Source of the DNA: Candidatus Latescibacterota bacterium | GTDB lineage: Bacteria; Krumholzibacteriota; Krumholzibacteriia; WVZY01 | NCBI GenBank assembly: GCA_011772205.1 | Contig: WVZY01000031.1 | Coordinates: 1-64,000 of the forward strand | Direction of reading: 5' to 3' | DNA length: 64,000 nucleotides | In this document: positions 33,275 to 39,918 of the stretch, in pieces | Position numbering within the stretch: position 1 is the stretch's first letter | Layout: each line of letters starts with the position of its first letter | Notes under the pieces: generated by a model | Seen by the model: the letters and a program-made list of their open reading frames with translations, nothing else | What the model was told of the DNA's origin: nothing | Database searches by the model: none | Made by a program: the position numbers and the translations under genes

Positions 33275-34990
33275 TTACTGGTCCGGCTCGTAAAACCGCT
33301 GAATGGTGTGAATCACATCTTTCTTCCGAACGAGCTCCGATCGATCTTCCCTCCGGTAATAGATCTCTATCATGCCCTTCTTGAGATTTCGTTCTCCAAG
33401 CGTGATCCGGAGCGGAATACCGATGAGATCCGCATCTTTGAACTTGTATCCCGGTCTCAGGTCCCTATCGTCCAGAAGCACATCGAATCCGGCACCTCGG
33501 AGATCCTCGTACAGCATTTCGGCAGTGTTCCGGGTTTGTGCATCCGCGATGTTCACCGGTAGGACGAGCACGTGCATCGGTGTGATGGACGACGGCCAGA
33601 TGATACCTTTCTCATCGTGGTGCTGTTCGATTGCCGCAGCGACGGTCCGCGATACGCCGAATCCATAGCACCCCATGATGAACGGCCGCTCCTTGCCGTC
33701 ATCGTCGAGATAGGTTGCGCCCATGCTCTCGCTGTATTTCGTTCCCAGCTTGAAAATATGCCCGAGCTCAACTCCCCGCTGCACGGAGAGAGTTCCTTTT
33801 TCGCACCGCGGGCACCGGTCGCCGGCTCGAGCCCGGCTGATGTTTGCGCTTGCATTGGGAGTGAAATCGCGGCCCATCTTTACGCCCCTGAGGTGGGCGT
33901 CCGTTTCGTTTGCACCGACAATCATGCCTTGGAATTCCTCCAACAGCGTATCGGCTATGATCATCGTGTCTTTGGGGAGACCGACCGGCCCCGAGTAGCC
34001 GACCTCCGCACCGGTGAGCTCGAAGATTTCTTCATCGGACAGCGGCTCGATCATGGGATCGCCTACGATCTTCGAGAACTTCGTCTCGGAAAGAGTGCGG
34101 TCCCCACCGATAAGGGCGGCTACCGTTTTATTGCTGGTTTTATATAGGAGCGTTTTCACCAGCTGCGAGGGTTTGGCACCCAGGAATGCCGTGACTTCCT
34201 CGACCGTCTTTTGACCCGGAGTTTTGATCTTCTGAGGCGTATCCAGCACCGGTTCCTTTACCTCGGCGGGTCTGCCGAGACTCTCCGCGCGTTCATCGTT
34301 CGCCGCATACCCGCAGGAACAGCTAAAGATCTCACTTTCTCCTTCCTGCGCCAGCACCACGAATTCATGGTTGATATCACCACCGATTTTTCCCGCGTCC
34401 GCTTCCACCATTACATTGCTCAATCCGCATCGGTCCAAGATGCGTCGGTAAGCGCCTGCCATTTTTTCGTATATCTCGTCCAGGGATTCCTCGCTCGTAT
34501 GAAAACTGTAAGCATCTTTCATGATGAACTCCCGCGCGCGCATGACTCCGAAGCGCGGGCGGATCTCATCCCTGAACTTCGTGAGAATCTGATAGTGACA
34601 CTGCGGGAGCTGGCGGTAGCTCTTGAGTTCGCTTCTCGCCATATCCGTGATCACCTCTTCATGGGTAGGACCGAGGGCGAAAAGACGGTTTCTGCGGTCG
34701 TGGAGCTTGAACAGCTCGGGGCCAAAATGCTGGAACCTACCACTCTCCTTATAGAGCTCGCTGGGATGCAGAATCGGCATGAGGACTTCCTGACAGCCGA
34801 TCCGATCCATCTCCTCGCGGACGATAGTTTCGATTTTTTTCAGAACGCGAAATCCGAGCGGCAAAAACGTATAGACGCCAGCCGTGAGTTTCCTGATCAG
34901 CCCCGCCCGGAGCATCAGTTTATGGCTGGGAATCTCCGCATCGCTGGGTGTTTCCTTGAATGTCGGGAGATAGTATTTGGTCCACCTCAT
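33275..34990 (-). CDS. proS: Prolyl-tRNA synthetase
   Basis: Class II synthetase for proline, bacterial type with an inserted editing domain. Motif 2 (TKFRDEIRPRFGVMRAREFIMKDAYSF), motif 3 (GCYGFGVSRTVAAAIEQ) and the INS editing domain between (residues about 225-400, with KTLLYKTSNKTVAALIGGDR) are present. ATG 34990 (MRWTKYY) has AAAGGA 6 nt upstream; the ATG at 35005 would leave almost no leader behind the promoter. A Zn-like CSCGYAANDE precedes the editing domain. Confidence 0.97.
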   Translation of the reverse strand: MRWTKYYLPTFKETPSDAEIPSHKLMLRAGLIRKLTAGVYTFLPLGFRVLKKIETIVREEMDRIGCQEVLMPILHPSELYKESGRFQHFGPELFKLHDRRNRLFALGPTHEEVITDMARSELKSYRQLPQCHYQILTKFRDEIRPRFGVMRAREFIMKDAYSFHTSEESLDEIYEKMAGAYRRILDRCGLSNVMVEADAGKIGGDINHEFVVLAQEGESEIFSCSCGYAANDERAESLGRPAEVKEPVLDTPQKIKTPGQKTVEEVTAFLGAKPSQLVKTLLYKTSNKTVAALIGGDRTLSETKFSKIVGDPMIEPLSDEEIFELTGAEVGYSGPVGLPKDTMIIADTLLEEFQGMIVGANETDAHLRGVKMGRDFTPNASANISRARAGDRCPRCEKGTLSVQRGVELGHIFKLGTKYSESMGATYLDDDGKERPFIMGCYGFGVSRTVAAAIEQHHDEKGIIWPSSITPMHVLVLPVNIADAQTRNTAEMLYEDLRGAGFDVLLDDRDLRPGYKFKDADLIGIPLRITLGERNLKKGMIEIYYRREDRSELVRKKDVIHTIQRFYEPDQ

Positions 34991-35017
34991 TCTCGTCCTT
35001 TCCATTCAGTTCCTGAG

Positions 35018-35146: not shown

Positions 35147-37939
35147 TTAATAGTTGAGGCCGATGAAGAACTCGACATCGGTGTCTTTGGATATCGTACT
35201 GAAATCGGTGGTTCGTGTAAAGTTCAAGCGGATAACGGGCGCGAAGCCCAAGTTCAACTCCACACCGGCTCCGAAAGATCCCAACCAGTCCGTGTCCAGA
35301 ACGTATCTGCTCACCTTGCCCACGTCGAAAAATATCGATCCGCGTATCATCGGAGTCTCGATCAATCCGAAAGGAAGCCTGAGGCTCAGCCTGTCTACGA
35401 GGGGAAACCGCAACTCGCTGTTAAAGAGGTACGTGCTCCTGCCGACGAACCTCCTGAAGTCGTATCCCCTGAAATCCCAGGGGCCGCCGAGATAGAAAAG
35501 TTGGAGGTCGCTTCCCCAGCTATTGCGGTTGACGAATCGCTCGGCGAGCACGATTCGCCTTGTGATTTTGAAATACTTCCTCACGTCCCAAAGAAACGTC
35601 GTGCTGGCGAAACCTTTCCCCTCGAAATCGATTGTGTGGCCTACTGTAGCGTAATAACGCGTGCCGGTGAGCGGCCCGCCAATTGTCCACAGAGTGTTGT
35701 CGGTTGCGTACGTGAAGAATGTGGTAGCGAGAGTGCTCCGCTTCGTTCCGAATTCGAACGTGCCAAAATCACTTTCTCTTTCCACCCTGCGCAAGACGAG
35801 GGATCCGTCGACGCGCGAAAACTTGCTGAACGGGTAGCTCGCTCCAAGAGCAACCCCATACCGTCTCTCGGAACGAAAGAGCGTGAAAAAGTCTCCGAAG
35901 AACGATGTCAGGTGGAACACCCCTATCGAATAGTTCAACCGGTGACTCAGATTGACATAGCTGATCCCACCGTTGAGGCGCTTCCAAAACTCATCCAACC
36001 CCTCGGATGTGTTGCCGAAAAATATATAAAACTGGTGGTTGCCAAGCATGTCGGTCAATACAAGCTGTCCTCCATTGCCCAATTCTCCGAATTCAGGATC
36101 GAGCGCAATACCCGTGCCGACGAAATCCAGCCCCAGTTTTAGCTTGTAATCCTTCGTCGTGAATGGGAAATCGTTGGCAAGCTCCCAGCTGGCTGTGGTT
36201 GAATCCGCGGAAGCGACGACGGTCTCCGGCCTGGCAAATCCTTCCTTCAGCGGGAGCTCGAACAAGTGAAACTCGCCGTTGTAATACGCGCCAGCAACGT
36301 AACGGTCCCCGCCGGGCGAGAACGACGGCGCGCTAAGACCTCCGAGGACGTTCGTTTGCTTCGAGACGACACCGTCGCGATAGAGGTAGATGTTGGATGT
36401 TCCATCTCGATCCGACGTGAATAGAAATGATTTCCCATCCGGTGCCCACTCGGGTTCGATGTCCTTCTGCTCTCCGCTTGTCAGGGGACGGATTGCTCCG
36501 CTTGCAAGGTCTAGTGCATAGATTCGCCGCAAGTTGCTTCCTTGGGAAGCAAACCGGTCGGAGGCAAAAAGAACAACTTCTCTCAATGGATTGAAGTCAG
36601 GGTCCTCTTCGACATAGAAGTCAGAAGTCAACCGCTCGAGGGATCCGTCGGGGAGATGGCACAGGTATAGGTCTTTCATGCCCGTTGTGTCGATCGCGTT
36701 GAACACTACGCGCTCCCGCTCGGGGGAAATGGTTGGCGACGAGATCATGCTCAAATGATCGAACGATAGGGACAATATCTTTGTGTTGCGATCGAGGTCC
36801 CATAAAAACAGCGCGTCCCGTCCGCGGCTCTTTGCGGCGAAAACCAGGGTATCCCCGGCAATTTCAATTTTGCTTCTGAACGCAGGTATCGATTCGATCG
36901 AAGAGGATCGACCTCCCTTGATCACCGATTTGTGCTTCAGCTTGCCATCCTTGTCCCGGCTGATGGAACAGATATCAATGACACCGTCGGAGGCGCACAG
37001 GGCATAGACAGGATGACTTTCCTCCTTTGCCGGTCCAACGGCGGGGCGAAAATGGAATGTTTGAGGTTCGGTGAGCTGGCGTCCAATGTCTGGAACAAAG
37101 GACGCCTCGAGGATCGCCGGATAATGTCTTCTCTTAACGCTCCTCATAAAGGCGTCGTCCAGCTCATCGATGTCCATGTTGATCGTTTTCTTGAGTACGA
37201 TGGAGAATTTGTTGGCCATCCACCAATTTTCAAAAACCTGGATGACCGCCTCTTTTCCAAAATTCGTAGCTATGTAGCGAACGACCGCCTCTCCATGTTT
37301 GTACATCATAAAAGTGCCTTCGATGCGCCAGATATTTCTCAAGCTCAGCAGCTTTCCGTGCATCAAAGCATCCCTTATGTACATGTGGCTTTGTGCATTG
37401 GCTTCCGGGGATGCTATGTACTCCGCAACGCCTTCAATGAACCAGAGGGGCGGGTGATTTAGGGAAAACTTGTTGTGCTCGGCCATTACTAGGCGGATTT
37501 TTTCGAGCATGAATGCATGCACCATTTCATGGCGAAGAACGTGGAGGAGATCCGAGTAAGCTCCAGTAAAGGGAATGGCGATCCGCCCCTTCATCAAATC
37601 GGTGAAACCGCCTGTATACTCCGAAATGAGTTGTGGAATGATATTGGTTTGCTGAAAATCGTAATGTGAGCTGAAAAGAACGACTGGGACGCGCTCTTCG
37701 AACTCGAGTCCAAATAACTCGCTATACTCCTCGTATGTCCGCTCCACTGCCGGCGCCACCGAGAGTACGAGGTTCCGCTCGCTCGGGTAGTGATAGATGT
37801 CCACATGCGGCGTTTGGAGAACCTTCCAATCCTTGTTCGAATAAATGACTTTATTCTTCCCGAACGGGTATTGGGCGTCTGAACCCGTTGGGAACAGGAT
37901 GAGGACCAGCAAGGTGGGAAGCAGCAATAATTTCTTCAT
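35147..37939 (-). CDS. Outer-membrane protein: HExxH peptidase-like domain, TolB-like propeller, Omp85-like barrel
   Basis: 930 residues with a signal peptide (KKLLLLPTLLVLILFPTGSDAQ). Residues about 40-290 resemble a gluzincin peptidase (peptidase MA-like): HEMVH at 137-141, with WFIEGVAEY at 166-174 giving the likely third ligand Glu. Residues about 330-600 contain TolB/PD40-type blades (for example EPEWAPDGKSFLFTSDRDG and NPLREVVLFASDRF). The C-terminal 330 residues look like an Omp85/surface-antigen beta barrel: alternating strands, a GGPWDFRGYDFRRF segment matching the VRGY motif, and a final aromatic residue (GLNY). No POTRA repeats are visible. So it is probably a barrel-anchored enzyme with a propeller on the periplasmic side. 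Last gene of the topA-hslU-argF-dapF unit. Confidence 0.82.
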   Translation of the reverse strand: MKKLLLLPTLLVLILFPTGSDAQYPFGKNKVIYSNKDWKVLQTPHVDIYHYPSERNLVLSVAPAVERTYEEYSELFGLEFEERVPVVLFSSHYDFQQTNIIPQLISEYTGGFTDLMKGRIAIPFTGAYSDLLHVLRHEMVHAFMLEKIRLVMAEHNKFSLNHPPLWFIEGVAEYIASPEANAQSHMYIRDALMHGKLLSLRNIWRIEGTFMMYKHGEAVVRYIATNFGKEAVIQVFENWWMANKFSIVLKKTINMDIDELDDAFMRSVKRRHYPAILEASFVPDIGRQLTEPQTFHFRPAVGPAKEESHPVYALCASDGVIDICSISRDKDGKLKHKSVIKGGRSSSIESIPAFRSKIEIAGDTLVFAAKSRGRDALFLWDLDRNTKILSLSFDHLSMISSPTISPERERVVFNAIDTTGMKDLYLCHLPDGSLERLTSDFYVEEDPDFNPLREVVLFASDRFASQGSNLRRIYALDLASGAIRPLTSGEQKDIEPEWAPDGKSFLFTSDRDGTSNIYLYRDGVVSKQTNVLGGLSAPSFSPGGDRYVAGAYYNGEFHLFELPLKEGFARPETVVASADSTTASWELANDFPFTTKDYKLKLGLDFVGTGIALDPEFGELGNGGQLVLTDMLGNHQFYIFFGNTSEGLDEFWKRLNGGISYVNLSHRLNYSIGVFHLTSFFGDFFTLFRSERRYGVALGASYPFSKFSRVDGSLVLRRVERESDFGTFEFGTKRSTLATTFFTYATDNTLWTIGGPLTGTRYYATVGHTIDFEGKGFASTTFLWDVRKYFKITRRIVLAERFVNRNSWGSDLQLFYLGGPWDFRGYDFRRFVGRSTYLFNSELRFPLVDRLSLRLPFGLIETPMIRGSIFFDVGKVSRYVLDTDWLGSFGAGVELNLGFAPVIRLNFTRTTDFSTISKDTDVEFFIGLNY

Positions 37940-38004: not shown

Positions 38005-38838
38005 TCAGACCTCGATTTCTACGGACCCGTCGAAATTGTCCGCGACCGGACCTTCAAGGATGACACCGCTCGCCCCGAACGGCTGTTTATCAAAAGTTAT
38101 TTTCAATAGATCGCCTCCCCTCTGCATCACTTCAACAGGACTTTGGCACCGTCCTAGATGACCCAATACCACCGCCGAGGAAATGGACCCGGTGCCACAA
38201 CCGTACGTTTCGGCTTCCACGCCTTTCTCGTACGTCCTTATGGCTAATGAGCCATCGGGATTGACCGACGCAAAATTAACATTCGCACCTATCGGGCCAA
38301 ATTCCGATTTGTGCCGGATTTCTCGACCCCAGGCGTCCACCTGCTCGTCCGTGAGGGCGAAGGCGTCTTCGACAGGGGCAACGACGTGTCGCGTAGCTGC
38401 AATGATAAAATGCACAATTTTCTCAACTTGGGCAACCTGCAAGGGTATGTTTAGGCGCATTTCTTTCGTATCCATCATTGAAAGAGCCACCGTATAGCCG
38501 CCGATCCACGCTTCGAGACTGCCGGCAAGGGTGTCGAAACGCACCGAAATGCGCTCTCCCATGCGTTCTCCCAATCCGAGAGATGCCGCAAAATGCGCCG
38601 CACAGCGTCCCCCGTTGCCGCACATTTCGGCTTCTCCTCCATCGCTGTTGTAATAGCGCATCACAAAGTCGCTCGATTTGGATGGATCGATGGTAATGAG
38701 TCCATCCGCACCGATTCCTTTCCTCCTGTCGCACAGGTGCTGGATCAGATCGGAGGGAAGCTCGAGCTTTCCCTCCAGATTGTCGATCATAATGAAATCG
38801 TTACCCAGGCCGTTCATTTTCTTGAAATGGAGACGCAT
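38005..38838 (-). CDS. dapF: Diaminopimelate epimerase
   Basis: Interconverts LL- and meso-diaminopimelate for lysine and peptidoglycan synthesis. The two catalytic cysteines lie in MCGNGGRC (about residue 73) and in YGCGTGSISSA (about 214). KMNGLGNDFIMID opens the protein. Length 277 fits. A meso-DAP wall is implied. It lies 19 bp after the Big_5 lipoprotein gene. Confidence 0.96.
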   Translation of the reverse strand: MRLHFKKMNGLGNDFIMIDNLEGKLELPSDLIQHLCDRRKGIGADGLITIDPSKSSDFVMRYYNSDGGEAEMCGNGGRCAAHFAASLGLGERMGERISVRFDTLAGSLEAWIGGYTVALSMMDTKEMRLNIPLQVAQVEKIVHFIIAATRHVVAPVEDAFALTDEQVDAWGREIRHKSEFGPIGANVNFASVNPDGSLAIRTYEKGVEAETYGCGTGSISSAVVLGHLGRCQSPVEVMQRGGDLLKITFDKQPFGASGVILEGPVADNFDGSVEIEV

Positions 38839-38856: not shown

Positions 38857-39918
38857 TCATTCCAGAATCATCACATCCAGCTTTAGCTCATCCCCGGGGG
38901 AAAGCTTTACGGTGTCGGGATACTCCACGCAAGGTTCAATGCACCCTTCGACGGTGTCCTGGGGGCACGGGTAGCGCCCGCACAGGCTGTCGGCCTTGAG
39001 GTCGATAAATGCCTTCAGAATATACTTCCCGGCACGCACGCTTTTAATTGTATAGTTCCCTGTTGTGTCGCAGCGTGCATAATGAGCCAGCGGTGTGGTA
39101 TCGTTTACCGCATACAAGGCCACCGAAACCAAGAGGGTGTCGATCGTCGTGCGGTTGTCCACCGCGCCCGCGACTTCACCTGGCTCATCGGGATCCACAA
39201 TATATATATCTCTACCCAGCAGCAAGGGGCTATTGACTGTCAGATCGAGCGTATCGGGTAGTATTCCTCCGGGCTCGTTATCGGGCTCGTGCTGGCCGTT
39301 TCCATTTTTATCTTGAAAAGCCCATACAATGAAGCTCGCATCATTAGTTGGAAGAAACCGAAACGCATAACTGCCGTCCTTGCCGGTAGTCACTTCGCGG
39401 TCTGGTTTCGACGCCTCGGGCGCAAAACTGGAATCGCGGGGCAACCTAAAGATGCGAACAGCCCCTTTATCTGTCGGTTTCCTTCTGAAGTAAACCACTC
39501 CGGAGACACTGCCGCTATCGATCGCCTCAGCAGTGGCAAACGCGAACGCGTGACCGACGGCGTCCTGCACACCATGCCTGTCCCTATATCCCGGCTTCAC
39601 CGCTACGATATATGTCGTATCGTCGTGAAGGGGCAATTCCGGAACCAAGATGAGCGTATTCTTTTTCCACTTCACCTTTCCAATCTCGACAGCTGGATAG
39701 AACGTCACCAACCGCTCCAGCTTGGCCCGCTGCATACCTTCGCTGAACGTGATATGTATATCCGAATCGGCGTGTACATTGGCAGCGCTGTCTTTCGGGG
39801 ACGTTTCGGCGATCGTCGGAGGAGTTTTGTCTTCCGGACCGCCGGGAGGCGGTAGTTGAACGGCGCAGGAAACGACAATCAGCGCGGAAAAAAATAGCCA
39901 AACTCGCAGCGTCCTCAC
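38857..39918 (-). CDS. Big_5-type lipoprotein
   Basis: 353 residues with an N-terminal lipoprotein signal (WLFFSALIVVSCAVQLPP; lipobox V-V-S-C). Residues about 28-130 form an Ig-like Big_5 domain: PGGPEDKTPPTIAETSPKDSAANV, ITFSEGM and a terminal FAFATAEAI. The rest is built of two or three carboxypeptidase-regulatory-like beta modules (GVVYFRRKP, TTGKDGSYAFRFLP, FQDKNGNGQHEPDNEPGG with a calcium-loop look, and GNYTIKSVRAGKYILKAF). This architecture is typical of Bacteroidetes/Chlorobi-type lipoproteins. Role not known. It abuts argF (2-bp gap). Confidence 0.82.
   Translation of the reverse strand: MRTLRVWLFFSALIVVSCAVQLPPPGGPEDKTPPTIAETSPKDSAANVHADSDIHITFSEGMQRAKLERLVTFYPAVEIGKVKWKKNTLILVPELPLHDDTTYIVAVKPGYRDRHGVQDAVGHAFAFATAEAIDSGSVSGVVYFRRKPTDKGAVRIFRLPRDSSFAPEASKPDREVTTGKDGSYAFRFLPTNDASFIVWAFQDKNGNGQHEPDNEPGGILPDTLDLTVNSPLLLGRDIYIVDPDEPGEVAGAVDNRTTIDTLLVSVALYAVNDTTPLAHYARCDTTGNYTIKSVRAGKYILKAFIDLKADSLCGRYPCPQDTVEGCIEPCVEYPDTVKLSPGDELKLDVMILE

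Follow-up and report, generated by a model that had tools for sequence, protein, structure and literature searches.

A protein of Krumholzibacteriota and Marinisomatota that joins a predicted metallopeptidase domain, a TolB-like propeller and an Omp85 barrel

Closest described systems

The main text of the 2014 survey by Heinz and Lithgow (PMC4104836) divides Omp85 proteins into ten subfamilies, among them WD40-Omp85, which it likens to a fusion of BamA with BamB. The protein described here is encoded in a 64,000-nucleotide stretch of a Candidatus Latescibacterota contig (phylum Krumholzibacteriota in GTDB), the whole of which is hereafter called the window. It has in common with WD40-Omp85, as presented in that text, a TolB-like propeller ahead of an Omp85 barrel and the lack of POTRA repeats, and differs by an N-terminal gluzincin peptidase domain that is absent from the survey's main text. 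Pairing of propeller and Omp85 barrel has been known since 2014, and the peptidase domain is an apparent addition for which we claim no priority: no description of such a domain on the WD40-Omp85 architecture was found in the literature searched, with subscription journals mostly outside it and the survey compared by its main text. Searching by domain names for the peptidase-propeller-Omp85 architecture yielded nothing relevant beyond that survey, and a literature search on Marinimicrobia yielded no paper. The 'Metallo' Omp85 group of the survey, as its main text defines it, is a different protein, being built on PF00149, the Pfam family of calcineurin-like phosphoesterases. Section 10 of PMC4104836 labels this group metalloproteases yet cites PF00149.

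Other systems resemble individual parts of the chain. PlpD (patatin-Omp85) likewise places an enzyme domain ahead of an Omp85 barrel, but that domain is a patatin lipase and there is no propeller, whereas the window protein carries a predicted metallopeptidase and has no Pfam match to patatin. A PlpD-type patatin-Omp85 protein is encoded elsewhere in the same genome (contig C71, L007:196-2394, plus strand). BamA and TamA share with the window protein the 16-stranded Omp85 barrel and an RGY-type motif between strands 11 and 12, but not its lack of POTRA repeats. TolB of the Tol-Pal system is similar to the propeller in sequence and fold, although the latter scores far under the equivalog cut-off and is fused to other domains. 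The peptidase domain of M9 collagenases matches in fold, and has HExxH, the glutamate of EG and the catalytic Tyr at the same distances, while the remainder of the window protein is unrelated to collagenase. As a functional analogue we propose BepA, an M48 periplasmic zinc protease which works at BAM, at sites of outer-membrane assembly (PMC13067283); this is analogy rather than membership, and BepA belongs to another peptidase family and is a separate, soluble protein without a barrel.

Three-part architecture and candidate active site

The gene occupies the coordinates of the original prediction, with an ATG at 37939 and a stop codon at 35147-35149 (Table 1). The sequence features listed in that prediction are all present, namely the signal peptide, H137-EMV-H141, WFIEGVAEY beginning at W166, SDRDG propeller blades, FRGY beginning at F823 and a terminal Tyr, and its central claim, that peptidase-like, TolB-like and Omp85-like domains are joined in one protein, agrees with profiles, homologues, AlphaFold2 and Foldseek. 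On sequence, profiles and model together, the established order is signal peptide, gluzincin-type metallopeptidase domain, TolB-like propeller and 16-stranded Omp85 barrel. The AlphaFold2 model of the whole protein (pLDDT 83.9, pTM 0.83) was built on an alignment of 23 members, which are 27-59% identical to the window protein; at E<=0.01, 22 of these match Peptidase_MA_2, 22 match PD40 and 12 match Omp85 (PF01103), and none matches a POTRA profile, as had been predicted. A paralogue of ~1,085 aa in the same genome (contig C34) aligns with the window protein across all three parts and exceeds the curated cut-offs for Peptidase_MA_2 (43 bits), PD40 and Omp85. Homologues and domain profiles rule out a chance or low-complexity origin.

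Table 1. Coordinates in the window of the gene, the parts and motifs of its product, and its neighbours
Feature	Position	Strand	Evidence or remark
Whole gene, class A copy, 930 aa	35147..37939	-	ORF list; homologues
Signal peptide, ~residues 1-23	37871..37939	-	Sequence MKKLLLLPTLLVLILFPTGSDAQ; cleavage site judged by eye
Gluzincin-type peptidase domain, residues 24-290	37070..37870	-	Peptidase_MA_2; fold match to M1/M9/M61
HEMVH, residues 137-141, two predicted zinc ligands and catalytic Glu	37517..37531	-	H137, E138, H141 invariant in 93/93
WFIEG, residues 166-170, candidate third zinc ligand E169	37430..37444	-	W166, E169, G170 invariant in 93/93; aligned to EG of M9 collagenase
Y213, predicted counterpart of catalytic Tyr564 of Ghcol	37301..37303	-	Invariant in 93/93; profile alignment
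TolB-like propeller, residues 291-565, ~six blades	36245..37069	-	TIGR02800; PD40; Foldseek of whole-protein model against PDB, TolB 5e-13; blades counted on model
Omp85 barrel, residues 593-930, 16 strands	35150..36163	-	NF047779; model; BamA/TamA matches
FRGY motif, residues 823-826, loop linking strands 11 and 12	35462..35473	-	Model; R824 and G825 kept in 92/93
dapF, upstream neighbour	38005..38838	-	Upstream in 12/20 fetched class A loci
Big_5 lipoprotein gene, upstream neighbour	38857..39918	-	Upstream in 16/20 fetched class A loci
proS, downstream neighbour	33275..35005	-	Downstream in 13/20 fetched class A loci

Profile searches were run for each segment. The central region matches TIGR02800 (TolB, NCBIfam) at 1.1e-22 and Pfam PD40 at 6.1e-9, the latter above its cut-off, and in a phmmer search of the PDB the protein hits TolB at 4e-13. 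With 80.6 bits against an equivalog cut-off of 343.15, a true TolB of Tol-Pal is ruled out. Towards the C-terminus, NF047779 (Omp85_fam, NCBIfam) matches residues 805-930 at 1.6e-8; the cut-off of PF01103 is missed by the window protein and passed by the paralogue. Strand number had been set beforehand as the test of the predicted barrel, and the model contains 16 long strands within residues 603-928, which Foldseek matches to BamA and TamA at 4e-11 and weaker (target TM-score of 0.71 for the TamA barrel 8us4). The loop that holds the FRGY motif corresponds to loop 6 of BamA. The lack of POTRA in all 23 aligned members excludes a POTRA-bearing BamA or TamA.

The peptidase domain is picked up more weakly by profiles, with Peptidase_MA_2 reaching 1.4e-4 and 22.2 bits against a cut-off of 32.4. 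Among the best 50 PDB matches listed by Foldseek for a separate model of this domain (38 sequences, pLDDT 86.1, pTM 0.85), all are of gluzincin-type M1, M9 or M61 kinds, comprising M1 aminopeptidases, M9 collagenases and one M61 enzyme, at modest E-values of 6e-4 and weaker. In the model the HEMVH and W-EG motifs sit on two helices (residues 128-154 and 165-176) within one gluzincin-type domain. In a profile search the domain aligns with Ghcol, a collagenase of Grimontia (E = 0.003). Zinc is bound in Ghcol by His492, His496 and Glu520, and Tyr564 has an effect on catalysis (PMC9304777). In the profile alignment H137, H141 and E169 fall on the M9 zinc ligands, and Y213 falls on Tyr564 when counting along the Ghcol alignment from HEYVH. 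The 44 residues from E169 to Y213 equal the distance from Glu520 to Tyr564 in Ghcol, and the 32 residues from H137 to E169 equal that from His523 to Glu555 in ColG. Beyond the positions in Table 1, T98 and R119 are also invariant across the 93 full-length homologues. The original prediction had named Glu169 and Glu173 jointly; of the two, the candidate zinc ligand is E169, with E173 a conserved residue close by (92/93). Given the invariant residues, and the alignment and spacing of ligands and Tyr relative to collagenase, the protein is likely to be a working zinc metallopeptidase. An M9 collagenase proper is ruled out by a Pfam Peptidase_M9 score of 19.1 bits, below the cut-off of 26. Some gluzincin-fold proteins are inactive, and the sub-threshold Peptidase_MA_2 score might suggest the same here, leaving the protein only a scaffold; this is highly improbable, because the zinc-ligand and catalytic positions are retained without exception, with Y213, in two phyla and two paralogues.

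Paralogue classes and gene neighbourhoods

Every one of the 80 genomes surveyed from the window's phylum contains a match at E<=1e-15, a count which overstates the full-length family since many matches, in family f6, are propeller-only. Among Marinisomatota, 118/120 genomes match at E<=1e-60, mostly at full length. A pattern scan of genome contigs gave seven loci, in close relatives only, and is uninformative on other phyla. The original prediction had proposed a count of homologues and their taxonomic range; 93 full-length sequences from these two phyla were compared, and a quick, midpoint-rooted tree splits them with SH-aLRT 100 into class A, which includes the window's copy (18 sequences from its own phylum and 13 from Marinisomatota), and class B (41 from the former phylum and 21 from the latter). 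As both classes are present in both phyla, the paralogues, judged from this tree, probably predate the separation of the phyla, unless gene transfer accounts for the distribution. In a single-contig relative (G005), a break around residue 152, past HExxH but ahead of the EG motif, divides the class A gene into two pieces ~0.5 Mb apart (C1:1808807-1809283 and C1:2327294-2329651), by rearrangement or misassembly.

Class A follows the order hslVU-argF-Big_5 lipoprotein-dapF-A, then proS; the neighbour counts in Table 1 come from 20 fetched loci, of which several lie on contigs that stop early. The original prediction placed the window's copy at the end of a housekeeping operon, beside dapF and a Big_5 lipoprotein gene; both of these neighbours are indeed upstream, but the same-strand run does not end there, as proS follows ~140 bp downstream. 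Promoter-like sites are no more frequent than in shuffled sequence and terminator-like sites are above it (21 vs 11.9), and transcription units were assigned from neither.

Class B in the window's phylum follows the order dxr-rseP-POTRA/Omp85-tamB-B-uvrD, with tamB directly upstream in 37/37 of the main class B clade (36 fetched loci and the window genome's own); four class B sequences of the phylum, outside that clade, are without a tamB neighbour. Such constancy could mean that the protein is a component of the TAM, an Omp85 partner of the adjoining TamB that serves as a TamA- or TamL-like outer-membrane anchor with the protease as an accessory, and TamA is indeed replaced by TamL in Bacteroidota (PMC12045153). 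We regard this as unlikely. A POTRA-Omp85 protein, with three POTRA matches in the window's genome, already precedes tamB in that operon, and contig C47 carries a second tamA-tamB pair, which together rule out class B as the genome's sole TamA. Moreover, the POTRA domains of TamA are reported to be both necessary and sufficient to bind TamB (PMC11014939), but the present family has none, and the class A copy in the window has no tamB nearby. The two POTRA-Omp85/TamB-type pairs of this genome are at L024:10004-16035 (C34) and L189:3053-9476 (C47), and its five-POTRA BamA is on contig C8, beside genes that by eye are lpxC-, lpxA- and lpxB-like.

In Marinisomatota, class B lies near argF and a Big_5 lipoprotein gene in several loci, and at one locus (L163) near lptC and genes that are kdsA-like and lptB-like, the latter of ABC type. 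Several loci of this phylum have, upstream of class B, a divergent gene for a calcineurin-like phosphoesterase, LpxH-like by eye (L163:5656-6384, L159:6237-6965, L166:10263-10991). In one Marinisomatota genome an M48 peptidase is encoded two genes downstream of class B, past a tgt-like gene (L169:4356-5546, minus strand).

Ten small Marinisomatota genomes were examined, with Omp85 proteins detected by PF01103 or the family profile. In eight of these, of 0.8-1.0 Mb (G178, G108, G195, G166, G144, G086, G116, G182), the detectable Omp85 proteins are BamA and class B only. TamB was not found in six of the eight, and its matches in the other two are short and weak (E 3e-6 and 5e-4). No M48 peptidase was found in the four of these genomes that were checked for one, and in each of the same four a single POTRA-bearing protein, with five POTRA matches, is BamA. 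Completeness is not reported for these genomes, and such absences are suggestive only; retention of class B where TamB was not found nonetheless argues against a purely TAM role. Alternatively, the protein could be a peptidase of the envelope that serves nutrition or the general turnover of peptides, with the Omp85 barrel as a mere anchor. The housekeeping neighbours of class A would suit this, and the related M9, M1 and M61 peptidases digest peptides or proteins, but we consider it about as unlikely as a TAM component, the other main alternative to the role proposed below, given that an Omp85 barrel would be unusual as an anchor, and that near-universal retention in small genomes and the TAM-like operon better fit a core envelope role.

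A possible role in assembly or quality control of the outer membrane

Even-stranded barrels have both termini in the periplasm, and TolB-like propellers are periplasmic. Periplasmic placement of the window protein is suggested by its even strand number and by the precedent of PlpD, whose enzyme domain remains in the periplasm and was found only there (PMC11116518). Of the two topologies that the original prediction left side by side, periplasm-facing is favoured on these grounds, and surface-exposed disfavoured. Omp85/TpsB relatives such as FhaC carry proteins across the outer membrane (main text of PMC4104836), so that the barrel might export the protease or display it on the cell surface, as was first proposed for PlpD; the same strand number, propeller and PlpD localization make this very unlikely.

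We give an even chance to the periplasm-facing protein being a protease that is anchored in the outer membrane and serves the assembly or quality control of that membrane. The C-terminal barrel would be inserted into the outer membrane at or near assembly sites, with the propeller and the zinc metallopeptidase held on the periplasmic side, where the former may dock substrates or partners and the latter may cleave stalled or misfolded outer-membrane proteins. Functions that are roughly BamB-like and BepA-like would in this way be joined to an Omp85 barrel, with class B as the core copy and class A, the window's, as a second, diverged copy. Every Omp85 protein studied prior to PlpD has a part in the assembly or translocation of proteins (PMC11116518). 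Consistent with such a role are invariant H137, E138, H141, E169 and Y213, the alignment of ligands and Tyr with collagenase, the gluzincin fold, the BamA/TamA barrel and the TolB propeller, together with the position of class B after tamB, its kdsA-like/lptC/lptB-like context at L163, the prevalence of the family as a whole in Marinisomatota, and the standing of class B with BamA as the sole Omp85 proteins found in eight small genomes. The argument is drawn mainly from class B, because class A sits among housekeeping rather than assembly genes, and for the same reason the function of class A is the least certain. Against the role stand the four class B loci without a tamB neighbour, and four M48 matches in the window's own genome, such that other proteases could do the work; further, adjacent genes need not act together.

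More broadly, and with a good deal less confidence, we speculate that the outer membrane of Marinisomatota and Krumholzibacteriota might be maintained by BamA and a second core Omp85 machine that has a propeller and a protease of its own within a single polypeptide, covering the work of BamB, BepA and part of the TAM, which are separate in Proteobacteria; in streamlined genomes, BamA would be its only Omp85 companion. The proteases that police assembly, BepA and DegP, act as separate proteins, and a near-universal protein that ties protease and propeller to an Omp85 barrel would, if true, represent a different coupling of assembly and proteolysis. Marinisomatota, a marine phylum, would also gain an outer-membrane component with no described function in the literature searched, and the conserved pairing of tamB with class B would offer a direct handle on TamB function outside Proteobacteria.

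A third kind of protein, with no Omp85 match, combines HEFTH or HEFSH and a W-EG motif with a PD40 propeller, and is encoded both in the window's genome (contig C20, L174:2059-5262, plus strand) and in Marinisomatota (L175:1802-4789, minus strand). In the copy of the window's genome the last residue is aromatic, and this copy may carry a barrel of another kind.
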